Assembly: GCA_947561395.2 (NCBI GenBank)
Contig: OX387183.1
Location: 6,753,883 to 6,817,882, forward strand
Reading direction: 5' to 3'
DNA length: 64,000 nt
Source of the DNA: Buxus sempervirens
Taxonomy: Eukaryota > Streptophyta > Magnoliopsida > Buxales > Buxaceae
Within the stretch, counting starts at the first letter, position 1, and every line of letters starts with the position of its first letter. Both the position numbers and the translations under genes were made by a program. The notes under the pieces are model-generated. The model worked only from the letters and a program-made list of their open reading frames with translations. It was not told where the DNA came from and did no database searches. This document shows positions 7,250 through 56,534 of this stretch, in pieces.

Positions 7250-7743
7250 ACAGTTTGCATGAAATTTGGGCCTGTAGAGTCCCTAGTCAGCCTGGCCAGC
7301 TCTGCAGCCCAACTTTGAGGGATGAAGAAGGGGATATTTTGAAAACTAGACCGGTCATAACGCTGGATTGGAGGGTGAAATAATCACTTCAACTCCGTTC
7401 AACAATGCTTAAAGGGAATTGCATAAATTCAAAATAAAGAAATAAGGTACATTTGTTCCAATGTTGAGCTTGATCAAATTATTCAACAAGAAAAGGTAAA
7501 ATTAAACATAGCAATAAAACAATATTCCAACATAACTTCCATGAATGCTGATCTCGATCTCCTTCCACATTCATCCAGTTTTCCTCTTAACGAAACAATG
7601 ACAATTTGAGCTACATATGATGAAGTAATGTAGGGTGCTGCCTTGTCGAACTTCTTTATTCTTAAAATCAGCTTCCTTTTTTGGGCTTGAATGGTAAAGA
7701 AAAATAGTTAAATGGCTACTTAATGAAAAACTCAGTACTGAAT

Positions 7744-8796
7744 TTAGTAGCCATGTGGTGGAGGAGGAGAGTTGTAATAATATACATGGGGAGGAGATGG
7801 TGAGGGTGGTGGTGGGGACTTGTAGTAATAAGGCGGAGGTGGTGATGGGGATGGTGGAGGTGGAGACTTGTAGTAGTAGTAGGGAGGTGGTGGTGATGGT
7901 GACGGAGGAGGTGGGGATTTGTAGTAGTAAGGAGGTGGGGGAGATGGAGATGGTGGAGGTGGTGACTTGTAATAGTAAGGAGGTGGAGGGGAAGGCGAAG
8001 GCGGTGGTGGAGATTTGTAGTAATAAGGAGGGGGAGGAGATGGAGAAGGTGGTGGTGGTGATTTATAGTAGTAAGGAGGGGGTGGTGATTTTACTGGTGG
8101 GGGTGGGGAGTTGTAGTAGTATGGTGGGGGAGGTGATGGGGAAGGTGGAGGTGGGGACTTGTAGTAGTATGGAGGAGGAGGCGATGGGGAAGGTGGTGGT
8201 GGTGACTTGTAGTAGTAGGGTGGAGGTGGTGATTTCTTTGGTGGAGGTGGGGACTTGTAGTAGTATGGTGGAGGAGGCGATGGGGAAGGTGGTGGTGGTG
8301 ACTTGTAGTAGTATGGAGGAGGTGGTGATTTCATGGGTGGAGGCGGGGAGTTGTAGTAATAGGGTGGAGGAGGTGATGGAGATGGGGGTGGTGGTGATTT
8401 GTAGTAGTATGGAGGAGGTGGTGATTTCTTGGGTGGAGGTGGGGACTTGTAGTAATAAGCTTGAGGAGGTGATGGGGAAGGAGGTGGCGGCGAATTGTAG
8501 TGGTATGGAGGAGGTGGTGATTTCTTGGGTGGAGGCGGGGAATTGTAGTAATAGGGTGGAGGAGGAGACAGTGATGGTGGTGGTGGAGACTTGTAGTAGT
8601 ATAGGGGTGGAGGAGATTTCACTGGTGGTGGAGGCGATTTGTAATAGTATGGTGGCGGTGGTGGAGATGAATAGATGTAATGCTTATCATCATCATCATC
8701 GTCTCCACTGCTGGTAGCGTGATTATCTGCAACCACATTAGTAGCAATCATACAAAACGCCAAGAAACACAACAAGCGAGGCCAAAGCCGCGCCAT
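7744..8796 (-). CDS. Extensin (SPPPP-YYYK hydroxyproline-rich cell-wall glycoprotein), copy 1
   Basis: Extensins are secreted wall proteins. Prolines in Ser-Pro4 blocks are hydroxylated and arabinosylated, and YxY tyrosines form intra- and intermolecular cross-links. The ATG at 8796 gives 350 residues. Upstream in-frame codons lack an ATG, and all copies share M-x-RLWP here. Residues 1-23 (MARLWPRLLCFLAFCMIATN...) are a signal peptide, followed by an acidic stretch with six Asp, then HYIYSS. The rest alternates SPPPPYYYK or YYYN with SPSPPPP, (K/V/M)KSPPPP variants, and ends PPPPHGY. An AATAAA (plus coordinates 7655-7660) lies 84 nt past the stop and a TATA box lies 145 nt upstream. There is no intron. 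The gene is intact and probably expressed. Confidence 0.95.
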   Translation of the reverse strand: MARLWPRLLCFLAFCMIATNVVADNHATSSGDDDDDDKHYIYSSPPPPPYYYKSPPPPVKSPPPLYYYKSPPPPSLSPPPPYYYNSPPPPKKSPPPPYHYNSPPPPSPSPPQAYYYKSPPPPKKSPPPPYYYKSPPPPSPSPPPPYYYNSPPPPMKSPPPPYYYKSPPPPSPSPPPPYYYKSPPPPKKSPPPPYYYKSPPPPSPSPPPPYYYKSPPPPSPSPPPPYYYNSPPPPVKSPPPPYYYKSPPPPSPSPPPPYYYKSPPPPSPSPPPPYYYKSPPPPSPSPPPPYYYKSPPPPSPSPPPPYYYYKSPPPPSPSPPPPYYYKSPPPPSPSPPHVYYYNSPPPPHGY

Positions 8797-8940
8797 AACT
8801 GGTAACTCGAAAGGCCGACAGCTCAATGACCCTCACCAGGTCTCTTGACGCAGCTTATACCGGACCTGGAAACGTCTGCAGGCCGAGAATATAAATGGAA
8901 GGACTGCTTGTTTCTTGTTTTGAATGAGAAGTTCACCCCT

Positions 8941-8947
8941 TTATATA
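8941..8947 (-). promoter_or_regulatory. TATA box of extensin copy 1
   Basis: TATATAA on the - strand, inside an 18-bp block (ACTATATAA preceded by GATC) conserved in front of all four extensin copies. Confidence 0.8.
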
Positions 8948-10088
8948 GTGATCGCTTGGTTTGAATCAGTGTAGACAAGGCCATGATTTTGATTAATATT
9001 GAGGATTGATTGGTTCCAAGCTGGATCCAACCATTGAGAAGTCGGAACCCACCAACTCTTGTGTGAAAGTTTCTTGAATTAATGTCAGCGCGAGAACAAG
9101 TCTCGACTTCAAATGATTTAATGGAAATTAAATCACCGGCTCTGTAAGTGTGAGGGGATGTTTCTTTCTAATCTCATTAGACCGAGTCCTAGTTTCCTGT
9201 TCAAAATCTTGGGGTTCTGATTAAGTACGTTAAAATGCTACCACTAGCCTATGCTGTTCGATTAACGATCAATAGTTCAATCCGGCTCGAACGGAGGGCA
9301 ATTAAATTATACGTGGTTTCTTGTCTCTTGGTTGCAATCTTGAAGAAGCATTTTATATCCGGCTAGTGTGAGTCACGTTTGTTTGCCACTAGCACCCTCT
9401 AGTTGACTTCTCTCTCACTATAAAATTTTATAGAGTAATATAGAGAGCTTTTTGCATCCATACTGTACGTTGTAACATATTTGCATCTATATACGCATGC
9501 TTTTAGAATTTGTGTTTATACTCTTTCATTTAGCATAATCATTGCAGCTTTACCCTTGAGGTTAAATTTTATTAACTTTGTTGTTTATTTTTATTAAATA
9601 ATTAAATTAATTTTCTATAAGATAAAAAAGTATTAGATTGCCAAATGATTATATGTTAGGCTGAGTTTCAATGAATAACTATCAATTGAGCAAATTAATA
9701 TCAACTACTTAAGATATAAATGTAATAAATATTATAATACAAGAACAAGCAGAATGAAAATTTAAGATAATATATATAGGAGGGTAAATGTGAAATAACA
9801 TTTTTTAATAAAATGTTACTTTTGTCATTTAATAAAAATAAATAATATAAGTTAACGAAATTTTAATGTTGAGGTATAACTATAATGATTATGCTAAATT
9901 AGTGGTAGAAATACACATACTAAAAACATGAGGATATAGATACAGATATAATGTAGGGGTATGGATGTGAAAAGCCATAATACATATAACCCTCCCATAT
10001 GCTTATCACTTATCAGATAATAATAACCATTTGATTAACATAATAATTGTGTTATTGAACATTAACTTAGGCTACATTTGGATAATGA
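8948..10088. other. Upstream flank of extensin copy 1
   Basis: Non-coding. It matches the flank of copy 2 (13216-14290) in order, including GGTTTGAATCAGTGTAGACAAG next to the TATA box, CTCGAACGG..GG farther up, and the GCTTTTTGCA(C/T)C(C/T)AT segment near 9450. The distal half is very AT-rich. Confidence 0.7.
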
Positions 10089-11569: not shown

Positions 11570-11927
11570 TTAAACTGACCTGAATCAACTCAAAATAAAG
11601 AAATGGGGCATATTTGTCCTGAACATACATTAATTTGCAAATTCTGACATAATGAAACCAATTAAGCAATTTCCCCCACCCAAGGAAAATAGGTGGGATA
11701 TTATTCGAAAGATACAATTAACATAACAATAAAATAATATCCAACATAACTTTCAACGCTGATCTTGATCTGCTTCCACATTCATCTTGTTTTCCTCTTA
11801 ACAAAACTAAAGCAATGTGAGCCACATATGATGAAGCGTGGTAGGGGGTCGCCTTGTCGAACTTCTTTATTCTTAAAAAATAGCTTGCTTAATGGCTACT
11901 TAATGAAACATTGCACAAGCACTGAGT

Positions 11928-13058
11928 TTAGTAGCCATGTGGAGGAGGAGGAGAGTTGTAATGGTATACATGGGGAGGAGATGGTGAGGGTGGTGGCGGA
12001 GACTTGTAGTAATAAGGTGGAGGTGGTGAGGGGGTTGGTGGGGGTGGAGACTTGTAGTAGTAGGGAGGTGGTGGTGATGGTGATGGAGGAGGTGGAGATT
12101 TGTAGTAGGAAGGAGGTGGGGGAGATGGAGATGGTGGAGGTGGTGACTTGTAATAGTAGGGAGGTGGAGGGGAGGGGGATGGTGGTGGTGGAGATTTGTA
12201 GTAATAAGGAGGGGGAGAAGATGGAGAAGGTGGTGGTGGTGACTTATAGTAGTAAGGAGGAGGCGGCGATTTTACTGGTGGGGGTGGGGAGTTGTAGTAG
12301 TAGGGTGGAGGAGGTGAGGGGGAAGGTGGTGGTGGTGACTTGTATTGGTATGGTGGAGGTGGTGATTTCTTAGGTGGTGGTGGTGAGTTGTAGTAGTATG
12401 GTGGAGGAGGCGATGGGGAAGGTGGTGGTGGTGACTTGTAGTAATATGGTGGAGGTGGTGATTTCTTAGGTGGAGGCGGAGACTTATAGTAGTAGGGTGG
12501 AGGAGGTGATGGGGATGGTGGTGGTGGTGATTTGTAGTAGTATGGAGGAGGTGGTGATTTCTTAGGCGGGGGTGGGGACTTGTAGTAGTATGGTGGAGGA
12601 GGTGATGGGGAAGGTGGCGGAGGTGACTTGTAGTAGTATGGTGGAGGTGGCGATTTCTTAGGTGGAGGTGGGGACTTGTAGTAATATGGAGGGGGTGGTG
12701 ATTTGTTGGGTGGAGGTGGGGACTTGTAGTAATAGGGTGGAGGAGGTGATGGGGAAGGAGGTGGCGGCGACTTGTAGTAGTATGGAGGAGGTGGTGATTT
12801 CTTGGGTGGTGGCGGGGAACTGTAGTAATATGGTGGAGGAGGAGATGGTGATGGCGGTGGTGGAGGCTTGTAGTAGTATGGAGGTGGAGGAGATTTCACT
12901 GGTGGTGGGGGCGACTTGTAGTAATATGGTGGCGGCGGCGATGCATAGATGTAATGCTCATCATCGTCTCCGCGGCCAGCATTATTATCTGCTACCACAC
13001 TAGTGGCAATCATACAAAATGCCAAGAAACACAACAAGCGAGGCCAAAGCCGCACCAT
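11928..13058 (-). CDS. Extensin, copy 2
   Basis: 376 residues from the ATG at 13058. The TTG four codons upstream is not used in any copy. The signal peptide is MVRLWPRLLCFLAFCMIATS.., followed by a shorter acidic segment (GRGDDDEHYIYAS) and SPPPPYYYK/SPSPPPP repeats with many KK-SPPPP variants. The ending HVYHYNSPPPPHGY is shared with copy 1 apart from one residue. Isolated substitutions inside the repeats (one SPSSPPP, one PPPPSYYK, one YQYK) are consistent with a gene under repeat turnover. Its AATAAA is at plus coordinates 11866-11871. Intact; product and wall role as for copy 1. Confidence 0.95.
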   Translation of the reverse strand: MVRLWPRLLCFLAFCMIATSVVADNNAGRGDDDEHYIYASPPPPYYYKSPPPPVKSPPPPYYYKPPPPPSPSPPPPYYYSSPPPPKKSPPPPYYYKSPPPPSPSPPPPYYYKSPPPPNKSPPPPYYYKSPPPPKKSPPPPYYYKSPPPPSPSPPPPYYYKSPPPPKKSPPPPYYYKSPPPPSPSPPPPYYYKSPPPPKKSPPPPYYYKSPPPPSPSPPPPYYYNSPPPPKKSPPPPYQYKSPPPPSPSPPPPYYYNSPPPPVKSPPPPYYYKSPPPPSPSSPPPYYYKSPPPPSPSPPPPYYYKSPPPPSPSPPPPSYYKSPPPPSPSPPPPYYYKSPPPPTPSPPPPYYYKSPPPPSPSPPHVYHYNSPPPPHGY

Positions 13059-13208
13059 AACTGGCAACTCGAAAAGGCCAACAGCTCAATGACCCTCACC
13101 TAGTCTCTCGACGCTGTTTGTACCTGACCTGAAATCTTCTGCAGGCCGAGAATATAAATTGAATGAGAAGGACTGCTTGTCTGTGAGTTGAATGAGAACT
13201 CAACCCCT

Positions 13209-13215
13209 TTATATA
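13209..13215 (-). promoter_or_regulatory. TATA box of extensin copy 2
   Basis: TATATAA on the - strand, about 150 nt from the ATG, in the same conserved block as copy 1. Confidence 0.8.
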
Positions 13216-15097
13216 GTGATCCCTTGGTTTGAATCAGTGTAGACAAGGACATTTTTTTTGTTTAATGTTGAAGATTGATTGGTTTCAAGCTGGAACCAAC
13301 CCACCAAGACTTTTGTTAAAGTTTCTCAATGTCAGCGCCAAGAACAAGTCTCAACTTCAAATGATTTATTGGAAAATCAACTGTCACTGAAAGGGAAGTT
13401 TGTTTCTAAATATCTGATTAGACAGGGTCTTTGTTTCCGGTTCAAAATCTTCGATAAAGGGTCCTATAGTAACTTAAAAGACTGCCACAATCCAAAGCCA
13501 TTCGATCATTGTTGGAGAGTACTTGATGAAGAATTTCTGAATTTGGTCTTCATGTGGTTGCAGGGTCTGCTGTCTACCCAAGATCATAGACTTACAGGCC
13601 AAAAATTCCGGCTCGAACCGGTGGCGACCAAATTATACATGGTTTCTAGTAACTTAGTTGCAATCTTGAAGAAGCTAGCATTTTATATCCAAGTAGTGTG
13701 TCTCACGTTTGTTTGTCATCAGCCTCGTGTTGACTACTCTCTTTCTCTCAATAACTTTAGAGCTTAATATATATAGGGCTTTTTGCACCTATAAACCCAC
13801 GTTGTATTATATTTGCATTTATATCTTCATGTTTTTAGTATTTATATTTATATTCTTCATTTAGCATAATCATTATTACTATACCTTTGACATTAAATTT
13901 TGTTGACTCTTATGATTTATTTTTATTGAATGAAATTAAAAGTAATCTTCTATAAGATTAAAAAAAAAAATTAAATAGCCAAATGACTGTATGTTAGGCT
14001 GAGCTTTTTTGAATAATTATCAATTATAAGCAAATTAATGTCAACGATTAAAGGTATAGATGCACTAAATGTAATACTACTAGCACATATATGAAATATA
14101 AGATAATATATGAGGGTAAAATACTTTGTCTTATAGAAGGTTACTTTAGTTATTTAATAAAATAATTAATAAAAGTTAACAAAACATTGGGGTATGATTG
14201 TTATGATTATGATAAATGGGGCGTATAAATACAAATACAAAAAACAAGAGGATATAAATGCAACTATGTTATAATATAGGGGTATGGATGAAAATGCTTT
14301 ACACATGTGGCATACCGCATTTTCTTGCAGTTTCTTACTATCCAAAAGCAGCCTAAGGTTTCCACAGATTTCCCACAATCACAACTATAAACTAAATCCT
14401 TAATTTTAATGAAGTTGAAATTAATTTTATCAATTTTAGTTACTTAAGTGGGATAAGTAAGATGGTGGTTCTCGAGCATTCCAAAAGTAAACTACATGTT
14501 CAAAGTGTAGTGACCAAGACTTACATGATTCTTAAGCACTTGTTCCTAAATGTTGCCATATGGTAAATCTTGATTAGATCATTTTTTAAGGTTCTTGGTA
14601 TTGACTTCTTTACATGAATTAGACATATAATTAAGCTGTCCTTTTTTCCCCTAAGCTAATTTTTTTGGCTTTTAGATATATTTCCCTTAATTAATAGTAT
14701 TTCTAAATTATTTATCTCATTTATCTTTCAAAAGTATTGGCAAGATGCATCAGTAAATTCAGATTCAATGTCTTGTGTTAGGAAATTAATAACATATATA
14801 GTCAATACATTCATGACCACGATGGAGTATTGAAAATTGGAAATTTTATTTATAGATTTGCATTGGGTAAAATTTTAAGTTAGACCCTTATTATTTTGTC
14901 ATGTTTTGGAATATCCTCATAATTCTTTTTTATTTATTTGTATTGACATCATATAGTTCACAAGTCTTCTGCGATTGTAGCCTTGAGAGCATTATTTAAT
15001 TTTTTGTTACATAAAATATATTAGGGTATTAGGCAGAGTTTTAATGGTTTTTAGTACATGTGTCTAGAGAAAAAAAGAGAGGGGCAAAACTAAGAAT
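13216..15097. other. Upstream flank of extensin copy 2
   Basis: Non-coding. 13216-14360 matches the upstream flank of copy 1, and 14500-14860 matches the far-upstream flanks of copies 3 and 4. The remainder is AT-rich with no recognisable feature. Confidence 0.6.
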
Positions 15098-16239: not shown

Positions 16240-17309
16240 GGGTAGAATTAGAAATTGCATTCAGGATTTTAATAACTTTCTTGCTAAAGCCAATCTCGTC
16301 TCCACGGCTGATAACCAATTTCTTCTTGCGATACCATCTGAACTTGAAATTCAGCAAACTGTCTTCTCTATGGATTAAGATAGCTGCCCGGGACCTGATG
16401 GCTTCTCTGGAAAATTCTACGTAACATGCTGGAATATTGTCAAAAAGGATGTGATTGAGGCAATCCAAGGCCTGTTTTAAGACAGAGAACTTCCCAAAAG
16501 TTTCACTTCAGCCCACATGGTGTTGATTCCCAAGAAACCCAACCCTGAAGTATTCGAAGATCTCAGGCCTATAAGTATGTGTAACTTCATCTATAAGGCA
16601 ATGGTGTCCATTATTGGGATGAGGCTTTCTACTATCCTTCTGAAAATCATCTCAAGGGAACAACATGCATTTGTCAAAGGTAGGAATATTGCAGATTGCA
16701 TAGGCATCGCCCAAGAGATGGTGGACCAATTGGAAAGGAAATGTTATGGGGGTAATCTTGTTGTTAAAGTTGATATGTCTAAAGCCTACGACAGATTGGA
16801 GTGGAGCTTTCTTCATGATGTGATGATGAAGTTTGGATTCTCGATTCCCTTTTGGAACCTAATTTTCAAATGCATTTCGAATTGTTGGACGTCCCTTCTC
16901 ATGAATGGGGGCCTACATGGCTACTTTAAAGCATCCCATGGATTATGTCAGGGTGATCCTTTGGCACCGGCTTTGTTCATTATAGCAGAAGAAGTGTTAA
17001 GTCAGTAACTCTCCCAAGCTTTTGCCTTGAACCAAATCAAGCATTATGCCATGGGCAGGAATTGTATGCAGATAAGCCATCTCTTGTTTGCGGATGACGT
17101 GCTTATCTTCTTGAGGGCTGATTCCAGATCGATTCGAAGTCTCCTAAAGCTGTGTAGGGATTATGAAATGACATCAGCATAAAGGATTAACGTTCAGAAG
17201 AGCTCATTTACTGTCTCAACAAGATGTCAACCAAGTAAGGTCTCCCAAATCACTCGGTTAACCAATTTTAATCAGCGGAAGCTTCCTATGGATTATCTTG
17301 GTGCCCCGC
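16240..17309 (+). pseudogene. LINE reverse transcriptase, 5' part
   Basis: One frame carries RT motifs in order: SCPGPDGFSGKFY, LIPKK, DLRPISMCNFIYK, EQHAFVKGRNI, KVDMSKAYDRLEW, SHGLCQGDPLAP and FADD (17087-17098). Four in-frame stops, all TAA (16376, 16478, 17006 and 17180), interrupt it without any frameshift. An old copy decaying by point mutation is the simplest reading. The family copies itself by target-primed reverse transcription; this one cannot. Confidence 0.9.
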
Positions 17310-18924
17310 TGTGAGACACGAAAAAAAATCACCGGAATGATTTCCCCTCCGTCAACACACGGGGCTCGACGCAAAAAGTGGGAGAGTCGCCACCATTCAG
17401 AATTTTGGAGGTGTGACACCAAAAGATTCAAAATAAGCAAAAAGTGCCAAAATGCCAATTATAAGGTAAAAATAACCTTACTTGAAAATCAAATCCAGAG
17501 ATGGGTAAGGGGATTAGATTATGAACGGGGGAAGGTGTTAGGCACCCCCATTCACCCACACAAGGTGGTTGCCAAGTGTTATTCATGCTAAAAGGAAATA
17601 GAAAGCTTGCTAAAAAATCATGAAAACCTTGAAAAAGGACAAATATATGATATTTTCACATGAAAATCCAAATGAATTCCAGATCTTCTTTTATGTTAAT
17701 ATCACTTCTGGAATGTTATAAAAAGATGGAAATCACAGCAAAAGTTGCACAAAACCAAGTTAAGGCAAATCCGGGAAATTTGGTAAAAAGTAAGGCCATT
17801 TCTCTTGAAATTAATCAAATCCAATTTTAAATTAAATCAAACCAAATCAATTTGAAAGATTAGGATAAACAATAATCTCATGCAAAATTTCCATTAATTC
17901 CGGTTGAAATCCGAAGAGTTATGGCTCTTTTAAAGTTGCTGCCGAAGAAAATCAAAAGTAGCAAGTAGGCAAATTTGGAAAATCACCTACAAAACTCTAC
18001 TCCATAGAAATCCGTGAAATTTGGTGTCAATGAAGTCTGTATGACCATATTTCGAAAGAAACTAGTCTCATACAAAAACTCATTCGGATGTGCCTTGGGT
18101 GACTTCCCGAATAGGCCCTGAAGATCACAGATCTACCCAGAAAAGTACTGATGAACAGTTCTGAGTAAATCCGTTACCAATAATTCAAATGAAGTCAAAA
18201 AATTATGAAACCAATTGGATTTGAAAATAGACTCATAAAGGAGTGCCCAGAAATAAAAATCATTCTAATCGGACTTAAAACGAACACATGGCGCTCCGTC
18301 GAAGTGATAAGTTCCGTATTTAAACCTGAACTATCCAATCAACTTCGACAGAGAGGTGTAAAAAATCTGCTCGATAGAAATTAATGAAATTTGGTTAACA
18401 TAAACTAGACAGCCTCACCTTTCCCATGGTTCTAGAATCGCTCCAAAATTTATCCGGACGATGAAGTTATGAGCGTCCGAAGTAAGGGTACAGGTGCTGT
18501 CAAGTTAGGCCCTTTTTGAACAAAACCAACTCAAAACTGTGATCAAGTGTGTGTAATTCGTGCAAGATGAATCCAAAACCTTTAAAAATCACTTAAAAAC
18601 ATTCCAGAATTGATTGAGGCCATTTATTTGTGATTTATCACAATGAATGTAATAAATCCCCAAATGTGAGCCTATCCCGCCAAAATTGTGCTATGTATGT
18701 GCAAGTGTGAAAAATCATACAAGATCAATATAACAAGATAGCATGCATACATATTCATCAAAATAAGGTTCTAAAACAACCTAGGGTTCCGTTCCATTAT
18801 CGTTTCCCTTTGTTCTCTCTCCCCGTTAAACACGGTTCTTCAAGATAATCAAGGGTACTTTGAATATGAAACGGTTTACAATCAATCAAAAGGCCTTATG
18901 CTACATAGGTTCTAGCACTAAGGT

Positions 18925-21678
18925 TGTGAGACATGGGAAAAAATCACCGGAGTGATCATCCCTTCCGTCAACACACGGGCTCAACGCAAAAATTGGGAGA
19001 GTCGCCACCATTCAAGATTTTGGGGTGAGAATGGACACCAAAGATTCAAAAGTAGGCAAAAATGGCCAAAAGACAAATTCTAGGGTAAAAGTAACCCTAC
19101 TTGAAAATAAAATCCAGAGATGGGTAAGGGGATTAGATTATGAACGGGGGAAGGTGTTAGGCACCCCCATTCATCCACACGAAGTGGTTGCCAAGTGTAT
19201 GTTCATGCTAAAAAGAAAATAAGAAGCTTGCTAAAAATCATGAAAAAGCCTTGAAAAAGGAACAAGTGTATGATATATTCACATGAAGATCCAAATGGAT
19301 TCTAGATCCTCTCTTATGTCAATATCATTTCTGAAATATCTCAAAGGATGGAAATCAAAGCACAAGTTGCTAAAACCTAGTTAAATCAAATCCGGAAAAT
19401 TCGGTAAAAAGTATGCCATTTGTATTGAAATCATTCAAATCCAATTCTAAATTGAACCAAATCAAATCCATTTGAAAGATTAGGGTAAATAAGAGTCTCA
19501 TGCAAAATTTCACTTCATTCCGATGAAAAATCTAGGAGTCATGCTCCTTTGAAGTTGCTGCTGGGGATTTTTAAAAGTGGTAAGTGGGCAAATTTGGAAA
19601 ATTGTCTAGAAAAATCCACTACATAAAAGGTCACGAAATTTGGTGTGATTGAAGTCTGTATAGCCATCTTTCAACAGAAACTAGCCTCATACAAAAATCC
19701 CTTCGGATGTGCCTTGGGTGGTCTCCCGAACAGGCCCCGAAGATCACAGATTTACCCAGAAAAATGCAAATGAGCAGTTCTGAGTAAATCGGCTACCAAT
19801 AATTCAAATGGAATCCAAAAATTATGAAACCAACTGGATTTGAAAATAGACTCAAAAAGGAGTACTCAGAAATAAAAACCACTCGAATCGGACTTAAAAC
19901 GAACACATGGCGGTCCGTCGAAGTGACAAGTTCTGTACTTGGACCTGAACTGTTCACTTAACTTCGACAGAGAAGTTTCAAAAATCGGCTTGATGAAAAT
20001 TCATGAAATTTTGTGGACATAAACTAGACAGCCTCACATTTCCCACGGTTCTAGAATCACCCCAAAATTCATCCGGATGATGAAGTTATGGGCGTCCGAA
20101 GTAAGGGTACAGGTACTGTCAAGCTAAGCCATTTTTGAGTAAAACCAAGTCCGAAAATTGATAAAAAATGAAATTCGTGCAAGATGAACACAAATACTTT
20201 AAAATCATCCGAAAGGCATTTCAGAATTGATTGAGGCCATTTATTTGAGTTTTATCACAATAAATGCAATAAACCCCAAATATGAGCCTATCCCGCCAAA
20301 ATAGTGATATTGTGCAAAAGTGAAAAAAACCAAGCAAGATCCATACACATGCATATAGATTTAACAAAATAGGTTCTAGCATAGCCTAGGGTTCCGTTCC
20401 ATTATCGTTTCCCTCTGTTCTCTTTAAGATAATCAAGGGTACTTTGAATATGGAACGGTTTACAATCAATCAAAAAGCCTTATGCTACATAGGTTCTAGC
20501 ACTAGGGTCAATCCCCAGTCTTGTATCTCCTAGATCCGCCTTCACGTTTTATGGCTAGGGGAGTCTTGAGATACTTTGAGCCGGGGAAGGATTTCCACAC
20601 ATACAAACAAGGCTTTACACTACAGAAAGGTAGAAGAAGAGATCTAGATCTAGGAATGTAAAGACAGAAAATAAAAAGAAAAGTTGAGGCTTACCTGAGT
20701 TCTGGAGGCGATTCCACAGCAGTTTTCTTCTTCTCTTGGAGTTCTTCTTTGCGAGAATTCAAAACAAGAGTTGTGTTCCATTTGCTCAAGGAGGAGGCTC
20801 CTATTTATAGGCAAAGGCTAAGGTCATTGGTAGACACAACTTAATGTCTAGAACCCCTCCAACCTTAACCCTAAGGTCATTTCCGAGATTTCCCCTCATT
20901 TAATGAGGGACATGATGGTAAAAGTGAAAAGCTCTCGGAAACCCTAATTTTGAGCAAAACTAGCGTATCCGGTATATCAGGCCGGATACACAAGGGCCTT
21001 AAGGTATCTGGTATATAATACCAGATACACTAAGCACTGCTTGTATCCGGTACTTGTCACCGGATCCAAAGAAATGTACTTGTATCCGGCCTGAGTTGCC
21101 GGATACAAGGAAAAAAGCCTTTTTTCCAAATTTTAACACAGGCAATACTTATTTACATGTAATATCGTTTAAGTAAATGTCCTCGTATTTTTTAATCTCC
21201 ATTTACTTAAGATATTACATGTAAATAAGCAAACACCCCCCCATTTGAATCCATTAAAAATAGTTCCAGACCCAAATTCCCAGTGAATAAAAAGTCAACT
21301 TTCCAGTTCTAGGCAAAATTCCGATTTTTCAGGTCTGGAAAAAAAGGTTCAATATGTTAAAACCAAGGTATTCGCCAAGATTTAAAATCTCAAAAAATTC
21401 TTTTATGCAATAACATGGCTAAAAACCTGATTACCGGGAAAAATTATCTTGAAATCTGGCTTTAAAAAATATTTCATTTTCTGGGGTCAAAAGTCAACAA
21501 AATTCAACCGGAAAAAGTTTGACTTTGCCCAAAAGATTGAATTCGGGCCTTTTCCTTTACGGCTTTGGATTCAAATGGGTTAAGTATCTCAAACCCAATG
21601 CTAAGAATTGAAAATTCCAATAAAATATTTATCTCCTTCAAGATTTATCAAAAATCGTGCAATTTTGGGGTGTCTACA
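18925..21678 (-). mobile_element. Solo LTR A2 nested in A1
   Basis: 2754 bp. Ends are TGTGAGACA...TGTCTACA, with target-site duplication AAGGT at 18920-18924 and 21679-21683. The interrupted text (TTCTAGCACTA/AGGTCAATCCCC) is seen uninterrupted inside A2 itself near 20490-20515, confirming the insertion point. TATA on the - strand is at 20811-20820. Confidence 0.92.
20965..21106 (-). repeat. 39-bp-phased palindrome array of LTR A2
   Basis: Four inverted repeats of 8-bp arms with a 9-nt spacer (GTATCCGG-N9-CCGGATAC and close variants) start at 20965, 21004, 21043 and 21082, exactly 39 bp apart. They lie upstream (- strand) of the LTR TATA box. Confidence 0.95.
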
Positions 21679-22148
21679 AAGGTCAATCCCCGGTCTCGTT
21701 TCTCCTAGATCCCGCCTCCACGTTTTACCGCTAGGGGGAGTCTCGAGATACTTTGAGCCGGGGAAGGATTTTCACACACATAGAAGGCCTTATTCTATAG
21801 AAAGGTAGAAGAAGAGATCTAGATCTAGAAATATAAAGACAGAAAATAAAAGAAAAGTTTGAGGCTTACCTGGGTTCTGGAAGCACTTCCGCAGCGGTTT
21901 CCCTCTTCTCTTGGAGTTCTTGGCGAGAATTCAAAACAAGAGTTAATGGCCATTTGCTTAAGGAGGAGCCTCCTATTTATAGGCAAAGGCTAGGGTTAGG
22001 GTTGGTGAGAATGGTAGACACAACATAATGTCTATAGCCCACCAACCTTAACCCTAAGGCCATTTCCGAGATTTCCACTCATTTAATGAGGGATATGATG
22101 GTAAAAGTGAAAAGCTCTCGGAAAACCCTAATTTTGAGCAAAACTGGT

Positions 22149-22290
22149 GTATCCGGTATATTAGGCCGGATACACAAGTACCTTAATGTATCCGGTCTAT
22201 GATGCCGGATACACTGAGGTCTACTTGTATCCGGCATTTTCCACCGGATACAAAGAAGGACACTTGTATCCGGCCTGAGTTGCCGGATAC
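22149..22290 (-). repeat. 39-bp-phased palindrome array of LTR A1
   Basis: Units start at 22149, 22188, 22227 and 22266. Arm and spacer lengths are the same as in A2, while the linker text differs. Confidence 0.95.
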
Positions 22291-22865
22291 AAGGAAAAAA
22301 GCCTTTTTTTCGAATTTTAACACAGGCAATACTTATTTACATGTAATATTGTTTAAGTAAATGTCCTCGTATTTTTTAATCTCCATTTACTTAAGATATT
22401 ATATGTAAATAAGCAAACACCCCCCATTTGAATCCATTAAAAATAGTTCCAGACCCAAATTCCAAGTGAATAAAAAGTCAACTTTCCAGTTCTAGGCAAA
22501 ATTCCGATTTTTCAGGTCTGGAAAAAAGGTTCAATATGTTAAAACCATGGTATTCGTCAAGATTTAAAATCTCAAAAAATTCATTTATGCAATAACATTG
22601 CTAAAAACCTGATTACCGGGAAAAATTATCTTGAAATCTTGCTTTAAAAAATATTTCATTTTCTGGGGTCAAAAGTCAACAAAATTCAACCGGAAAAAGT
22701 TTTACTTTGCACAAAAGATAGAATTTGGGTCTTTTCCTTTACGGCTTTGGATTCAAATGGGTTAAGTATCTCAAACCCAATGCAAAGAATTGAAAATTCT
22801 AATAAAATATTTCTCTCATTCAAGATTTATCAAAAATCGTGCAATTTTGGGGTGTCTACACCCGC

Positions 22866-28010: not shown

Positions 28011-28112
28011 CCGTATACTCAGAGCGGTCAAGGCGTGCCCGTAGTTAATCTACGGTCTGGCCTAAACCGTATTAAAATTACGGTTCTGACCAGACCGTGA
28101 ATTAAATACGGT
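28011..28112 (+). repeat. Distal 28-bp-phased palindrome array of LTR B1
   Basis: Four CCGTA...TACGG-type palindromes with CCG at 28011, 28039, 28067 and 28095, exactly 28 bp apart. Confidence 0.92.
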
Positions 28113-29394: not shown

Positions 29395-31885
29395 TGTGAG
29401 ACATGGGAAAATCACCGGGATGATTCCCCCTCCGTCAACACACGGGCTCAACGTAAAATGTGGGAGAGTCGCCACCATTCAGAATTTTGAGGTGTGAATG
29501 GACACCAAATGATTCAAAGATGAGCAAAAATAGCTAAAAGGGGGAAATTCTAGAGTAAAAATAACCCTACTTGAAATTCAAATCCAGAGATGGGTAAGAG
29601 GATTAGATTATGAACGGGGGAAGGTGTTAGGCACCTCCCTTCACCCACACAAGGTGGTTGCCAAGTGTTTGTTCATGAAAAAAAAGTAAGAAAGCTTGCT
29701 AAATCATTAAAAACCTTGAAAAGGGACAAATGTATGATATCTTCACATGAAGATCCAAATGGATTCCAGATCTTCTTTTATGTCAATATTATTTCTGGAA
29801 CATCACAAAATATGGAAATCAAAGTAAGAGTTGCGCAAAACCAAGTTGAATCAAATCTGGGAAATTTGGTAAAAAGTAATGCCATTTGTCTTGAAATCAT
29901 TCAAATCCAATTTTAAATTGAACCAAACCAAATCCATTTGAAAGATTATGGTAAATAATAGTCTCATGCAAAATTTCACTCCATTCCGATTAAAATCCTA
30001 GGAGATATGCTCCTTTAAAATCTGCTGCTGGAGATAATTAAAAGTGGTAAGTGGGTAACTTTGGAAAATCATCTAGAAATATTGGCTCCATATTAATTCA
30101 TGAAATTTGGTGTGAGTGAAGTCTGTATGGCCATCTTTCAAATGAAACTAGCCTCATACAAAAATTCATTCGGATGTGCCTTGGGTGGTCTCCCGAACAG
30201 GCCCCGAAGATCACAGATTTACCCAGAAAAGTGCTGATGAACAGCTCTGAGTAAATCTGTTGCTCACGACACAAATGGAGTCAAAAAAATTATGAAACCA
30301 ATTGGATTTAAAACTAGACTTCCATAGGAAAACTCAGAAACAAGAATCATTCGAATCGGACTTAAAACGAACACGTGGCGCTCAGTCGAAGTGACAAGTT
30401 CCATATTCAGATCAAAACTGACCTATCAACTTCGACAGAGAGGTGTCAAAAATCCGCTTGATAGAAATTAATGAAATTTGGTAAGATTAAACTAGACAGC
30501 CTCACCTTTCCCACGGTTCTAGAATCACTCCAAAATTCATCCGGACGATGAAGTTATGAGTGTCCGAAGTCGGGGTACAGTTGCTGTCAAGTTAAGCCCT
30601 TTTTGATGAAAACCAACTCCAAATAGTGATAAAGTGTGTGCAATTCGTGCAAGATGAATACAAATCCTTTAATAATCATTTGAAAACATTCCAGAATTGA
30701 TTGGGGCTATTTATTTCAGATTTATCACAATAAATGCAATAAACCCGAAATGTGAGCCCATCACGCCAAAACATGTGCTATGTATGTGTAAGTGTAGAAA
30801 TCATTCAAGAACAATATAACAACATAGCATGCATTCATATTCATAAAAAAAAGGTTCTAGAACAACCTAGGGTTCCGTTTTATTATCGTTTCCCTTAGTT
30901 CTCTCTCCCCGTTAAACACGGTTTTTCAAGATAATCTTGGGGTACTTTGAATAGGAACGGGTCTTCATAGAATCACAAGGCTTATAACATGCATTTAGAT
31001 CAACTAAAAAAAAAGGTTCTAGAACAACCTAGGGTTCCGTTCCATTATCGTTTCCCTTAGTTCTTTCTCCCCGTTAAACACGGTTCTTCAAGATAATCTT
31101 GGGGTACTTTGAATATGGAATGGTTTACATAGATGTAAAAGGCTTATTCAAATAGGTTCTAGCACTAGGATCAATCCCCAGTCTCGTTTCTCCTAGATCC
31201 CGCCTTCACGTTTTACGGCTAGGGGGAGTCTTGAGATACTTTAAGCCAGGGAAGGGTTTTCATACACACATCAAGGCCTTATTCTACAGAAAGGTAGAAG
31301 AAGAGATCTAGATCTAGAATGTAAAAAACAGAAAATAAAAGAAAAGTTTGAGGCTTACCTGGATTCTAGAAGTACTTCCGCAGTGGTTTCCCTCTTCTCT
31401 TGGAGCTCTTCTTGGCAAGAATTGTTGGCAAGAGAGTTAATGGCCATTTGCTTAAGGAGGAGCCTCCTATTTATAGGCAAATGCTAGGGTTAGGGTTGGT
31501 GAGGTGGTAGACACAACATAAGGTCTATAGCCCACCAACTTTAACCCTAAGGCTATTTTCTAGATTTCCACTCATTTAATGAGGGATATGATGGTAAAAG
31601 ATGAAATCTCTCGGAAAACCCTAATTTTGAGCAAAACTTATGTATCCGACATATCAGGCCGGATACACGAGTGTCTTAATGTATCCGGCCTATGATGCCG
31701 GATACACTGAGGTCTGCTTGTATCCGGTATGTTCCATCGGATACGAAGAAAAACACTTGTATCTGGTCTGAGTTGTCGGATACAAGGAAAAAACTCATTT
31801 TCTCAAATTCTGTGCTGGCCTTCAAGGAGATAATGATTTTTGATGATTATTGATCATTTTGACAGTGCAATTTGGGTTGTCTACA
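29395..31885 (-). mobile_element. Solo LTR A3 (family A)
   Basis: 2491 bp. Ends are TGTGAGACATGG at 29395 and TGTCTACA at 31885, with target-site duplication GCTGT at 29390-29394 and 31886-31890. It is oriented on the - strand, with TATA at plus coordinates 31467-31476. A segment of about 130 bp (AGGTTCTAGAACAACCTAGGG...) is tandemly duplicated at about 30853-31130. Confidence 0.92.
31642..31783 (-). repeat. 39-bp-phased palindrome array of LTR A3
   Basis: Units start at 31642, 31681, 31720 and 31759. A few arm positions are mutated (GTATCCGA, ATCGGATAC, GTATCTGG), but spacing is unchanged. Confidence 0.93.
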
Positions 31886-31890
31886 GCTGT

Positions 31891-32799
31891 ACACTTCACA
31901 AGGAGGAGAATAAAAACCACATCTTTTCCACAGGTACATTGGCTCTTGGAGTTTGGGACTTCTTCTCCAACATCTTGGATGTACCATTAAGCACTTCCCA
32001 ATCGGCCCATGCACGAATCATGTTATGGCTCAATGCTGCAAAAGTGGTTACATCGAGCACTTTTTTAACAGGGGTGCTACCTTCTTTCATTTGTTGGGAA
32101 TTGTGGAACTCCAGGAACAAGGCTGTTCATGATAGCGAGCCTCCAACTCTGTTCAATGTCATAAACCGCACAAAGAGATGGGTGAGAGAGATCTCGGGAG
32201 TGGCACCATCATGGGACTGCACTAGCTGGGTTGAAAGGCTCAACATGCAGGTTTTGGGTTTTCAAGTGAATGTTGCACCATTGAAACAAGTGAGATTCAT
32301 TCGATGGCTGAAACCATCGGATGGAGCAGTGAAACTCAACACAGATGGGGCCTGTTTGGGGAATCCAGGACCGGCAGTAGGAGGTGGCATCTTACGCAAT
32401 GATAGAGGGGAGATGATCCACGCGTTTGCTCACTTTTATGGTGAGAGTGACAGTTTGAAGGCGAAGGCAAGGGCGATGTGGGACGGTATCATGATGATCA
32501 ACCTTGACGCCAGTTACCAGATTGTTGTCGAAAGTGACTCTGAGGTCTTGATAAATGCAATTAAAAGTAGGATTGACTGCCCATGGAGCATCTACTATTG
32601 GGTTTCCCAAATCAAACGGTACATCAACAGGATGTCTTTTTGTCACACTCTTTGCCAAGGTAATCAGGTTGCAGATGAATTGGCACAGGAAGCAATCAAA
32701 ACTAGAATGGATTTGGCGTACACAGATAAAAGGGACTTGCCACAGCAGGCACGAGGACGTCTAACAATTGACAGATGTGGGTTGTGTTATATAAGATAA
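31891..32799 (+). pseudogene. LINE RNase H domain and C-terminus
   Basis: A long open stretch with SFICWELWNSRNKAVHD followed by an RNase H domain: LNTDGACLGNPG (first Asp), VVESDSEVLI (third acidic position) and GNQVADELAQEA (last Asp). The second catalytic position, normally Glu in a TEAE-like motif, reads KAKARAM, so Lys replaces Glu. The piece is open but cut off from the rest of the polymerase by LTRs. A stop at 32797-32799 is followed by a 3' UTR and an A tail at 32937-32949. Confidence 0.88.
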
Positions 32800-33122: not shown

Positions 33123-34149
33123 AGGGGAATGCCCTCAAGAAAGTGCATGAAAAGAAAAAAGTGAAACCTCCATATGCCTTGTCATAACTATGAAAATTAC
33201 AATTTATGGAATAGGCAAAAAGACTGTTGTATCAAGTGAAGATTATTTCAAAGGGGTCACGAGCTTGGCATGAGAAGTGAGAATGCATATATAACCAAAA
33301 AATTTATTGAATCTAAGTGGGCTGGGTTCATTGGCACCAGGCAATCAGGCATGATTTGTTCAGAAGATGTTTTGAGGGCACCTCCTATCTACTCTTTTCA
33401 TGTTTGGGATATTTGTGTGTGGTTAAAAACTAGGTCATTTTCTAGCAGGACTAGGCTTAAATCAAATAAAAAACCCCTTTCTCTTTGGTGAAGACCTTAG
33501 ATGTAAAACTTATTTATTTATTTATTCTTGGTTTCTTTTTTGTATTCCATGAAGGGGAAAAAAAGGAGGAAAAATTCTCTTGTATATGAATGAAGTGTTA
33601 ATGAGTTGTTTAAGAACAAAGGATTCAATTAACATCTTTCCATGAAATTTGGGCCTGTGGATCCCCAAGTCCAGCATGGCACTGTAAAGCCCAACTTTGA
33701 GCTGGGAAGAAGCGTGGACTATTTTGAAAACTATTAACCGGTCATAACTCTGGATTCCAGGGTGAAATCACTTCAAACTAAACTGACTTGCATCAAATAA
33801 AAATAAAGAAATGAGGCATATTTGTCCTGAACATACATTAATTTGCAAAAGTGCTGAGTTAATCAAGAGATGCCAAATAAAACATTTAGCCCACCCAAAG
33901 AAGATAGGTGGGATATTATTCAAAAGATCAAATTAACATAACAATAAAAGAATCCAACATAACTTCCAATCTTGATCGATCTTGATCTGCTTCAACTAAG
34001 ACTATGTGAACCACATATGATGAAGTGTGGCTTTTCGACTTGTCGATCGAACATCTTTATTCTTAAAATCAATTTCTTTTCTGGGCTTGAATGGTAAAGG
34101 AAAAATAGCTCAATGGCTACTTAATGAAACACTTGCACAGGTACTAAGT
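33123..34149. other. 3' flank of extensin copy 3
   Basis: Non-coding. 33480-33600 matches 50120-50250 and 33640-33790 matches 7259-7380. It holds the copy-3 polyadenylation signal (AATAAA on the - strand, plus coordinates 34056-34061). Confidence 0.65.
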
Positions 34150-35266
34150 TTAGTAGGCATGTGGAGGAGGAGGAGAGTTGTAATGGTATACATGGGGAGG
34201 AGATGGTGAGGGTGGTGGTGGAGAATTGTAGTAATATGGAGGAGGTGGTGAGGGGGATGGTGGAGGTGGAGACTTGTAGTAGTAGGGAGGTGGTGGTGAT
34301 GGTGATGGAGGAGGTGGAGATTTGTAGTAGTAAGGAGGTGGGGGAGATGGAGATGGTGGAGGTGGTGACTTGTAATAGTAGGGAGGTGGAGGGGAGGGGG
34401 ATGGTGGTGGTGGAGATTTGTAGTAATAAGGAGGGGGAGGAGATGGAGAAGGTGGTGGTGGTGATTTATAGTAGTAAGGAGGAGGTGGTGATTTTACTGG
34501 TGGGGGTGGGGACTTGTAGTAGTATGGTGGAGGAGGTGATGGGGAAGGTGGTGGTGGTGACTTGTAGTAATATGGTGGAGGTGGTGACTTCTTAGGTGGA
34601 GGCGGGGACATGTAGTAGTAGGGTGGAGGAGGTGATGGGGATGGGGGTGGTGGTGATTTGTAGTAGTATGGAGGAGGTGGTGATTTCTTAGGTGGGGGTG
34701 GGGACTTGTAGTAGTATGGTAGAGGAGGGGATGGGGATGGGGGTGGTGGTGATTTGTAGTAGTATGGAGGAGGTGGTGATTTCTTAGGTGGTGGTGGGGA
34801 CTTGTAGTAGTATGGTGGAGGAGGGGATGGGGAAGGTGGCGGAGGTGACTTGTAGTAGTATGGTGGAGGGGGTGATTTCTTAGGTGGAGGTGGGGACTTG
34901 TAGTAGTATGGAGGGGGTGGTGATTTCTTGGGTGGGGGTGGGGACTTGTAGTAATAGGGTGGAGGAGGTGACGGGGAGGGGGGGTGGCGGCGACTTGTAG
35001 TAGTATGGAGGAGGTGGTGATTTCTTGGGTGGAGGCGGGGAACTGTAGTAATAGGGTGGAGGAGGAGATGGTGATGGTGGTGGTGGAGACTTGTAATAGT
35101 ATGGAGGTGGAGGGGACTTCACTGGTGGTGGGGGCGATTTGTAGTAATATGGTGGCGGTGGTGGTGATGCATAGATGTAATGCTCATCATCGTCATCTGC
35201 TATCACACTAGTAGCAATCATACAAAATGCCAAGAAATACAACAAGGGAGGCCAAAGCCGCGCCAT
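34150..35266 (-). pseudogene. Extensin, copy 3, broken by a 1-nt insertion
   Basis: The start (MARLWPPLLYFLAFCMIATS..) and first 100-odd residues are normal: signal peptide, acidic DDDEHYIYAS and SPPPPYYYK repeats. At 34978-34984 a run of seven G (seven C in the coding sense) is one base longer than the frame allows compared with copy 2. The frame leaves the repeat and stops at 34880-34882, giving a 128-residue product. Below the break the original frame is open without stops all the way to its normal terminator at 34150, with the usual PPPPHAY end. Everything else, including promoter and polyadenylation signal, is intact. The break is therefore very recent, tolerated by slippage, or an assembly error in a homopolymer. 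Confidence 0.92.
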
Positions 35267-35346
35267 AACTGGCAAGTCGAAGAGGCCAGGAATATCAATG
35301 GAAGGACTGCTTGTTTTGTGACTTGAATGAGAACTCCACCCTTAAT

Positions 35347-38131: not shown

Positions 38132-38378
38132 CCGTATTTCAATTACGGGCAGGGCATGCCCGTATTTGAAATACGGGCAAGCTTCTGGAAGAAGACACGC
38201 GTCGCTGTACGGCGGGACACGCGTCCCGTATGGCCGATTTTGCGAGATTTGGAAATGTGCGTTTTTCGCCCGTATTTGAATTACGGGCAAGGCACGCCCG
38301 TACTTGAAGTACGGGCAAGGCACGCCCGTACTTGAAGTACGGGCAAGGCACGCCCGTACTTGAAGTACGGGCAAGGCT
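38132..38378 (+). repeat. 28-bp-phased palindromes upstream of LTR B3 TATA
   Basis: Two units with CCG at 38132 and 38160, then four nearly identical 28-bp units at 38267, 38295, 38323 and 38351. Each is a 19-base near-perfect palindrome CCCGTACTTGAAGTACGGG plus a CAAGGCACG linker. The array ends 20 bp before the TATA box. Confidence 0.95.
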
Positions 38379-39179: not shown

Positions 39180-39280
39180 CCCGTAAACTCAGAGCGGTCC
39201 GGGCTGGACCGTGTTTGCTCCACGGGCAAGGCTAACCGGATTTCGTTCACGGGCAAGGGCGGACCGTATAGCAAATACGG
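39180..39280 (+). repeat. Second 28-bp-phased palindrome array of LTR B3
   Basis: Four CCGTA/CCGTG...ACGG units with CCG at 39181, 39209, 39236 and 39264, about 0.8 kb downstream of the TATA box. It corresponds to 28011-28112 in B1. Confidence 0.88.
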
Positions 39281-46772: not shown

Positions 46773-47213
46773 ATATGAAAACTCTCCAATGGTTCTCACT
46801 AGAATTGTTCTTAATGTTATGAGGTGGTTGCAAGAGGTCTCTGTGTTCATCAAACCTGCTGTTTCTTGCTCTTTTGATAGGGCAATCTGTTTGGAAAGTA
46901 TGAATATTTCCATGCCTACTATTGCTAGAAGACATTACAAGATTGTGAGATGGCATAATTCTCGTGAACATTCCTATGTTCTTAATACAGATGGAGCCTC
47001 TAAAGGTAACCCGGATCAGTGGAGGTGGGGCAGTTATAAGATCCTCCAATGGGGAGTTTTTGGTTGGCTATTCAGCTTTTTATGGTTATGCTACTAACAC
47101 CATGGCTGAAATCTTGTCTTTAAGAGATGGTCTTAGATTGGTGGACAGCTTGGGAATTCAAGGTATATGTATTGAAAGTGATTCTAAGTTTCTTGTGGAC
47201 AGTTGTAGACACC
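46773..47213 (+). pseudogene. LINE 2 RNase H domain, 5' part
   Basis: Reads VLNVMRWLQEV, YVLNTDGASKGNP (first catalytic Asp), then after a 1-nt frameshift GGGAVIRSSNGEFLVGY, NTMAEILSLRDGL (catalytic Glu present) and CIESDSKFLVDS (third Asp). Cut by A4 inside VDS. Confidence 0.88.
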
Positions 47214-49030
47214 CCAAATTGCACTAAAAATGAGAAAATAATTGAAAATATTAATTGGGATTTGAAACAGGTCAAAAAAGTGTAAAATCTGGCCAAACTG
47301 GTCATGACCGTATTTTGTTTACGGACTGGTCATATCTGCAGTTGATATACGGTCATGGCGTGCCCGTATTAATAATACGGGTAGGGCGCGACCGTAATAT
47401 ATATATGGGCACGGGGGTCTTTGTGCGAATTTTACCTTTTTGATTTTTGAGCCTTATCTGAACCCAAATATCTCTCTTGGATAAGCGAATTCTCTTATTT
47501 ATCTGTTCGAATTATCTCATTTATCCTTGTGGATAAAGGATTGGCATGATCTTGTATTTAACTCAAACTGAAACTCTATCTTGCCAAACCTTGGACCAAC
47601 CATACCCCTGTGTTTGCCTATAAATAGAGGGCCTTTCCTCAAGCAAAAGGCCACGAAATTTTGAAGTCAAGGAATTCTAAGAAGCTCCAAGAGAAGGAAA
47701 GGAATCCCTGCTGCTCTGCCTGCTCAATCCAGGTAAGTCCCCTATCCCTTTTATTTTCTGTCTTCAATTCTAGATGTAATAGGATCATCTCTATTGCTGT
47801 AGAATAAGGCCATATCTGTTTTTGTATCCCTAAACTTGTCTCCAAGTACCTCAAGGGTCTCTCTAGCCGTAAAACGTGAAGAGAGAACTAGGGGAAAGGG
47901 GAACAGGTGGATCCCTAGAATAGAACCCCATATCTGTTTTTTCTCTTTTTTTCATAGAATAAGGCCTGTGATTGTGTTTGTATACCCAAACCTATCTCTA
48001 AGTGCCTCAAGAGTCTCTCTAGCCGTAAAACGTGAAGAGAGAACTAGGGGAAAAGAGAACAGGTGGATCCGTAGGGTAGACCCCCATGTGTTCTAATTTG
48101 TGAGATGTGGCTGTTTTAAATATCCTGATCATGTTTTAATGTTTTTTATGATGAATCTGAATGAATTACATGAATCTATGATGTTTATAGCATGAGATCC
48201 TCTCTTTTTGCCAAAATTTGGAATTTTGCCACTTTTGCACCTACAGCACTGTTTTCGTGATTTTTGCGATTTTAGGCTAAGATCTTGGATTTATCATGAT
48301 CAATATGGTAGATCTGAATCTAGAAGCCTGAAAATGAATTCTAGGGTTTCATGATATGGTTTTTAAATTGTTTTTTATTATTGAGAGAAGACCCTACGGT
48401 CTCAATTCTCCCCTTTTGGTGTTTTTCATCAACGTGGGTCTTTTTGGATTTGATTTTCAGATTTAATGTGAAATTTGGGCTTTATCTATGTCCTGGACTG
48501 TTCAAATTAAATTTTGAAATATTTTATAAAAATCATATTTTTCTAGATTTCTAGAATTTGACTTGAAGCCAGATTTTTGGATTTTTCACTTTAAATTGAT
48601 TTTATTTGATTTCATCTCAATTTTATTTTGATCATGAAACCCTAGGAATGGTATGATCATGTTTGATAGTTCTGGATCAATCAGACTATTCATATGAAAA
48701 AAACCATATATTTTTGCTTTTTTTTTGTGATTTTCGTGATTTTTATAGCAAGATTTTTCCTTTATTTTAAACATGAACAATACCTGGCAACCACCTTGTG
48801 TGGATGAATAGGGGTGACTAACACCTTCCCCTGTTCATAACTTAATCCCCTTACCCATCTCTGGTTGTTTTTTTTTAGGAGGGATATTTTGCCCTAAAAT
48901 TTGCCTTTTGTGCTTGTTTAATATTTTGGTGTCCATTCACACCTAAATTGAATGGTGGCGACTCTTTGTTTAATTTAATCCCGTGTGATGATTGAGGAAA
49001 TCATTAGATTGATTTTTCCCATGTCTCACA
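47214..49030 (+). mobile_element. Solo LTR A4: family A ends with a family B type palindrome array
   Basis: 1817 bp, TGTAGACACCCC...TGTCTCACA, with target-site duplication ACAGT at 47209-47213 and 49031-49035. TATA CTATAAATAG is at 47619-47628, a splice-donor-like CCAG|GTAAGT at about 47731, and the conserved U5 block at 48786-48864. It has no 39-bp GTATCCGG array; instead it holds the 28-bp CCGTA array. Confidence 0.92.
47308..47409 (+). repeat. 28-bp-phased palindrome array of LTR A4
   Basis: Units begin at 47308 (CCGTATTTTGTTTACGG), 47336 (CTGCAGTTGATATACGG, degenerate), 47364 (CCGTATTAATAATACGG) and 47392 (CCGTAATATATATATGG), exactly 28 bp apart. Confidence 0.9.
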
Positions 49031-51951: not shown

Positions 51952-52050
51952 AACTGGTAACTCGAAAAGGGCAACAAGACCTGGGATCCTTTGCAGGCCG
52001 AGATCAATGGAAGCACTGCTTGTTCCTGTCTTGAATGAGAACTCCACCCC

Positions 52051-52057
52051 TTATATA
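52051..52057 (-). promoter_or_regulatory. TATA box of extensin copy 4
   Basis: TATATAA on the - strand, 100 nt upstream of the ATG, in the conserved block. Confidence 0.8.
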
Positions 52058-56470: not shown

Positions 56471-56534
56471 GTATCCGGTCAATCAGATTGGATACACACA
56501 AGGTCATTCGTATCTGGTATGTTATACCGGATAC
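56471..56534. repeat. 39-bp-phased palindrome pair at the antisense promoter
   Basis: GTATCCGG-N9-TTGGATAC at 56471 and GTATCTGG-N9-CCGGATAC at 56510: the same arms, spacer length and 39-bp period as the LTR arrays, outside any LTR. Confidence 0.93.

Follow-up and report, generated by a model that had tools for sequence, protein, structure and literature searches.

Palindrome arrays in the window

The DNA analysed here (hereafter the window; 64,000 nucleotides, C3:6753883-6817882 of the 676.5 Mb Buxus sempervirens host assembly) holds four long terminal repeats (LTRs) of one retrotransposon family, termed family A. A1 (17310-22860, minus strand) is a solo LTR with the target duplication CCCGC that is interrupted by a second solo LTR nested within it, A2 (18925-21678, minus strand; target duplication AAGGT), and A3 (29395-31885, minus strand; GCTGT) is a third. 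A5 (57113-59405, plus strand, the right end being placed to within a few bases) is read as a 3' LTR because the purine tract AAAGAGGGGCAG precedes it (polypurine tract, 57100-57111, plus strand). The TATA boxes of A1 (21973-21981), A2 (20801-20809) and A3 (31467-31475) lie on the minus strand, and that of A5 (57512-57520) on the plus strand. To the left of A5, on the minus strand, sits an antisense plant-mobile-domain (PMD) gene (53970-55144), whose frame 53970-54929 matches the Pfam PMD domain (1.3e-13) and is apparently joined by an intron to the upstream frame 54800-55144. A1 and A3 adjoin LINE-type frames (16481-17005 and 31837-32796, with reverse transcriptase and RNase H-like matches), into which they seem to have inserted. 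Four extensin-like stretches built of 48-bp repeats (7491-9032, 11570-13301, 34047-35287 and 50342-52144, the last with an Extensin_2 match) are 82-92% alike in pairs and probably form a gene cluster. Diverged repeats built around AAGGTACC, each roughly 20-23 bp long, fill about 1.6 kb at 61541-63160; a TATA-like word near 63208 follows about 50 bp after their end, a further case of repeats combined with a TATA motif.

Each of the four family A LTRs carries four GTATCCGG-N9-CCGGATAC palindromes that start exactly 39 bp apart, at 20965-21106 (A2), 22149-22290 (A1) and 31642-31783 (A3) on the minus strand and at 57203-57344 (A5) on the plus strand. An earlier note on this DNA had described these four arrays, and their positions, 8-9-8 geometry, 39-bp starts and location upstream of the TATA box all agree with our analysis. 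The set was incomplete, since a fifth array of two units, also with a 39-bp step, had been overlooked at 56471-56534 (minus strand), upstream of the antisense PMD gene and with a TATA box 8 bp off. Allowing up to three mismatches, the window contains 18 palindrome matches against a shuffled mean of 0.07, and the exact palindrome occurs 20,444 times in the host genome against none for the reversed pattern, so a chance origin is ruled out. With up to two mismatches the genome-wide count rises to 52,258 (reversed pattern, 89). A prokaryotic or viral origin was also rejected: prokaryotic contigs gave 12 single-site stretches (by our own estimate about 4 are expected) and viral contigs gave none.

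The arms show the few substitutions that had been reported, with eight of 256 arm bases off consensus across the 16 LTR units, seven of them C>T or G>A. The free variation of spacer and linker text claimed alongside holds between different units of one array, which differ at 61-63% of spacer and linker positions, and is milder for the same unit across the four copies (20% in the spacer, 25% in the linker, 5-8% in the arms). A pyrimidine/purine rule at the spacer ends, invariant in the window, was discarded because it breaks down in the wider set of LTR arrays, where 27 of 113 units have A at spacer position 1. In array text the pairs are A2 and A5 (13 differences), and A1 and A3 (17), unlike in the upstream flank, where A1 and A2 group together (19 differences in 570); we take this discordant grouping as a sign of recombination among LTR copies. 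A2 also contains, at 21148-21229, an inverted repeat whose arms are each about 30 bp long; it is visible in A1 too and is perhaps a small inserted element.

Array placement in giant Ty3/gypsy elements

Family A arrays are carried by giant Ty3/gypsy elements, five of which (E1-E5) start at C1:3409248, 3441494, 3679628, 4234021 and 7609074 and measure 20.6-23.0 kb. Their LTR pairs are 98.2, 100.0, 99.6, 99.6 and 97.1% identical, respectively, so some of these insertions are recent. By Pfam, E4 has gag; E1 and E5 have reverse transcriptase, RNase H, integrase and, in addition, another domain resembling RNase H. PMD was matched in antisense frames of E5, of E1, where both genes exceed the cut-off, and of E4, where the match is weak and concerns the first gene; translated searches detected relatives of the two PMD proteins in all five elements. 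The second PMD protein of E1 and that of the window begin with RG-rich stretches. The order RVT_1, RT_RNaseH, RVT_3, Integrase_H2C2, rve was found at L018:4242-7199 and, spread over two frames, in stretch L035; RVT_3 is, in our own reading, the second RNase H, which in both places would lie between RNase H and integrase as in the Tat clade. TG...CA LTRs with 5-bp target duplications, a further trait of that clade, are present in E1 (CTAAT), E2 (GTCTC) and E4 (GTACC), as in A1, A2 and A3. A second RNase H before the integrase is the Ogre/Retand order, and PMD open reading frames (ORFs) are typical of Ogre (PMC6317226), in which 57% of elements have them as extra ORFs (PMC6317226). Retand elements have LTRs of 315-1,194 bp and an antisense TRP28 instead of PMD (PMC11963269). 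The family A LTRs, at 2.27-2.32 kb, exceed this range, which together with the PMD ORFs points to Ogre over Retand, and we regard the family A elements as probably Ogre-type Ty3/gypsy.

Arrays stand at five places in each of E1-E4: four units in both LTRs, four upstream of the first PMD gene, two upstream of the second and, 1.4-1.6 kb inside the 5' LTR, an array in which three units were found. The fourth array of E1 is split between two stretches, and the array list leaves out isolated single matches with three mismatches such as those near C1:3423274, 3455453 and 3693306. In a TATA scan from which L030 was left out, a TATA box lies 155-167 bp downstream in all 18 LTR arrays, 12 bp downstream in all five complete first-PMD arrays and 8-9 bp downstream in four of the seven second-PMD arrays, the scan finding none in the other three. 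The seven 5' internal-region arrays had no close TATA box, the single weak match being 113 bp away. E5 has an extra five-unit array on the minus strand with a TATA box 11 bp away. A five-unit type with one constant 104-bp gap among its 39-bp steps was observed in L034, L038, L047 and L055, and in L034 it lies on the minus strand with a TATA box 11 bp off. At C1:8464636-8571913 (G000), eight LTR anchors on one strand recur about every 15.32 kb, which suggests that whole retrotransposon units are arranged in tandem there.

The flanks of the four array types match at only 7-27 of 60 positions (one representative each, ungapped), against 40-55 of 60 for one array type across subfamilies. The flanks are thus unrelated between array types, and the array is the common feature of these promoters. 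The earlier note had described the arrays in LTR promoters; what it missed were the arrays at the antisense-gene promoters.

Step, drifting text and a second array class

Text drift was compared with phase in 28 LTR arrays, chosen for having at least three units and an LTR TATA box, with some elements contributing both LTRs. Pairwise differences amount to 5.0% in the arms, 31.9% in spacer and linker, 23.0% in the upstream flank and 9.7% in the downstream flank; the phase mostly holds while the text drifts, as had been claimed. Gap intervals numbered two in 142 array columns against 14 in 285 flank columns; one of the two is the loss of a whole 39-bp unit and the other a 1-bp change present in both LTRs of one element. 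The Poisson probability of one gap or fewer is 0.0075 by columns and 0.0021 for non-arm columns scaled by substitution, and 0.10, which is not significant, for unscaled non-arm columns. A period drifting as fast as its neighbours, the outcome that the earlier note had named as counting against its reading, was not found. The window by itself was too weak a basis for judging the strictness of phase, and a between-unit indel estimate (P 0.006) was set aside owing to its star tree and near-saturated distances.

Counted over the whole genome with exact arms, the spacer is 9 bp long in 20,444 cases and 10-18 bp in 38, a count that covers 9-18 bp. The linker between exact neighbouring arms is 14 bp in 11,447 cases, 4-13 bp in 91 and 15-24 bp in 27, which makes 118 of 11,565 off phase within the 4-24 bp range. 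These exact-arm counts are lower bounds and favour young copies; the first half of the neutral length control comprised 1,216 and 1,285 sites. Departures from 39 bp in the initial 20 stretches were steps of 38 (three arrays, two of which are one LTR pair), 77 and 104; another 20 stretches had 59 steps, of which 54 were 39, three 104, one 40 and one 38. The element at C1:3383766-3395573 has the 38-bp step in both LTRs, and other off-phase linkers recur across the genome at distances resembling LTR pairs. An element with a 38-bp step has therefore transposed, and exact phase is not indispensable; that the period never changes, as the earlier note put it, is an overstatement.

Outside the family A arrays, CCG-Nk-CGG pairs in the window peak at k=11 with 18 pairs, the other values of k from 0 to 30 averaging 2.9 pairs and reaching 8 at most. 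Seventeen of the 18 fall within arrays of family B (copies at 37571 and 23301), of a B-like stretch (28011-28111) and of family C (47204-49030), and the remaining one lies at 56399. Pairs in the reverse order, CGG-Nk-CCG, are likewise most numerous at k=11 (14 pairs) because the half-sites alternate every 14 bp in arrays of 28-bp step. The family B array (38270-38370, plus strand) has four CCG-N11-CGG units on a 28-bp lattice. A second array of this class, with steps of 27-28, occurs in the B and B-like stretches (28011-28111 and 39181-39280) at a distance from the LTR TATA box, which in the 37571 copy lies about 0.8 kb upstream of the array.

Family C, a relative with another half-site, is represented in the window by a solo LTR (47204-49030, plus strand) whose array (47308-47408, plus strand) sets CCG-N11-CGG on a 28-bp lattice of four places, two of them complete. 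It shares with family A the first bases, the TATA box and a splice-donor-like word, and LTR stretches are 77-82% identical. Over five family C LTR arrays CCG is present at 19 and CGG at 18 of the 20 lattice places, with steps of 28, 27 or 28, and 28 (in one array the lattice decided one of the places). The full-length family C element at C3:44640706-44652471, with LTRs that are 99.4% identical, has the same bases as family A after its 5' LTR, carries gag, and has the CCG-N11-CGG class on a 28-bp lattice both at the LTR and 1.2 kb inside, where four of five places are complete; neither a match to family A pol (at E 1e-10) nor a PMD relative (at E 1e-5) was detected in it. Genome-wide, CCCGTA-N7-TACGGG occurs 12,309 times (reversed control, 24), and the class with N8-13 occurs 44 times against 999 for its reversed control, which is accordingly no neutral yardstick. 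Half-site (GTATCCGG in family A, CCGTA in family C) and step thus vary between the two families of one genome while the 11-bp inner distance is constant. The difference between the steps, 39 - 28 = 11 bp, is about one helical turn, a relation noticed post hoc in two families.

A candidate operator shared by LTR and antisense promoters

Palindromic LTR boxes as such are already known, since CGG-CCG boxes have been described in Sireviruses (PMC2829016). These Ty1/copia elements have RM boxes, palindromes with a CGG-CCG signature, several of them upstream of the LTR TATA box and more before the accessory gene (ENV), the same plan as here (PMC2829016). The citrus RM box AATCCGGCTWRCCGGATT even shares ATCCGG...CCGGAT with the family A palindrome (PMC2829016), whose consensus unit contains CGG-N9-CCG and, like RM boxes, has a TATA box downstream in 18 of 18 LTR arrays. 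The elements themselves are not Sireviruses: the junction reads CA-ACTGGCGACTCTGCTGGGGA here as against CA-ATTGG-TATCAGAGC, the integrase follows RNase H, and our arrays belong to Ty3/gypsy with a second RNase H, a 9-bp spacer (CCG-N11-CGG), a 39-bp step and antisense PMD genes, whereas the available text on RM boxes states no fixed step (PMC2829016). Ogre elements of the Tat clade share the second RNase H between RNase H and integrase and the PMD extra ORFs, but in the accessible portion of their description a promoter palindrome array is unmentioned and the word 'antisense' has no occurrence (PMC6317226). Likewise, the portion available on Retand with antisense TRP28 describes no shared promoter array (PMC11963269). 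Ogre-like and Retand elements often have antisense accessory genes, whose function the literature describes as unknown (PMC11963269, PMC7264820). VANDAL transposons and their VANC proteins have family-specific short motifs that are repeated in non-coding regions and differ between related families (PMC5735166, PMC10398659), as GTATCCGG of family A and CCGTA of family C do in one host; those are, however, DNA transposons with a known binding protein (PMC5735166), and 'palindrom' and 'inverted repeat' have no occurrence in the available text of PMC5735166. Literature searches, which left most subscription journals outside, yielded no report of a fixed-step array that LTR promoters share with antisense-gene promoters and none of such an array in Ogre elements, and searches on the words of the site sequence returned unrelated papers. 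Among Ty1/copia elements, Tnt1 has BII, a short tandem palindromic box. BII boxes are LTR promoter boxes that bind defence-induced factors (PMC3316501).

Our preferred reading, which we consider probable with a good measure of doubt, is that the array is an operator or enhancer row of a giant Ty3/gypsy element, probably Ogre, with phased dimer sites common to the LTR and the two antisense PMD promoters. Each palindrome, with its CCG and CGG triplets 11 bp apart, would be the site for one protein dimer, and neighbouring dimers would stand in a fixed helical relation along the array. Conserved arms over drifting spacers fit protein contacts. As the same operator would serve the LTR promoter and the promoters of the two antisense PMD genes, one trans-acting factor could switch genomic RNA and accessory genes together. 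Weighing against this reading are the second-PMD and 5' internal-region arrays in which no close TATA box was found, the transposed 38-bp variant and the Poisson value for unscaled non-arm columns. The selection on protein spacing put forward in the earlier note is in keeping with a phase conserved over drifting text, while the protein, like the silencing or anti-silencing target that the note offered as another possibility, is putative. Candidate binders that came into consideration are LBD 'molecular calipers' and GARP dimers, and the array site may resemble EIN3-like or type-B response-regulator sites.

The factor may instead be encoded by the element, an antisense PMD protein or other product binding the palindromes and acting on its own family as an activator or anti-silencing protein, much as VANC does. 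Within each family, LTR and internal arrays have concordant arms, whereas families of one host differ in theirs, and the concordance holds inside a single element although the spacer texts differ, which is the trace that an element-encoded or family-specialized factor would leave; moreover, the PMD genes carry the operator at promoters of their own. VANC proteins target repeats of family-specific motifs in non-coding DNA (PMC5735166), the PMD proteins MAIN and MAIL1 act in silencing (PMC5418596), and Arabidopsis promoters dependent on MAIN/MAIL1 are enriched in a motif, binding not having been assayed there (PMC7156037). DNA binding by PMD proteins is, however, only putative, host factors with two specificities are an alternative, and a family C factor would come from elsewhere given that no PMD relative was detected (at E 1e-5) in the one full-length family C element studied. 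We therefore regard an element-encoded factor as rather unlikely. Its fullest form, a self-contained circuit in which the antisense PMD proteins, expressed from operator-bearing promoters, would bind their own family's phased CCG-N11-CGG arrays as dimers and activate or un-silence both the LTR and their own genes, with sister families diverged in half-site and, by one helical turn, in step so that private circuits coexist, is to our mind unlikely.

Somewhat less probable still is a hairpin or silencing feature, in which the palindromes act as folded RNA or as a source or target of small RNA, as proposed for maize Sirevirus LTRs, whose palindrome-rich regions are small-RNA hotspots (PMC5311732, PMC10760457). 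A 162-nt stretch of A5 folds at -89.1 kcal/mol (z -12.8), there is extra dyad symmetry outside the arms (P 0.003 in A1, 0.09 in A2, 0.005 in A3 and 0.0004 in A5, copies that are not independent), and the prevalence of C>T and G>A among the arm changes is the pattern expected of methylated sites. A hairpin, however, has no need of a constant 9-nt loop or a constant 39-bp step, a position 8-12 bp upstream of TATA boxes suits a DNA element better, and of the eight arm changes four break a pair, two leave G-U pairs and two compensate each other. The array might, on the other hand, be an ordinary tandem duplication spread by retrotransposition with a period that was merely inherited. The copies do derive from related masters, one array has lost exactly one 39-bp unit, and the absence of gaps in 142 window columns is equalled by 15% (317/2,130) of downstream windows of the same size. 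Such passive inheritance is nevertheless very improbable in our view, for the arms are kept between units whose spacers and linkers differ so widely, gaps are rarer in the arrays than in the flanks, the same lattice stands at several promoters with unrelated flanks, and a relative family has a different half-site with the same inner geometry.

For a phased operator common to LTR and antisense promoters, the questions of what binds it and whether the accessory proteins feed back on it become testable. With upwards of 20,000 natural copies, the genome also offers a case in which helical phasing can be told from half-site and from family identity and, should the circuit reading be true, several private circuits would operate side by side in one genome.
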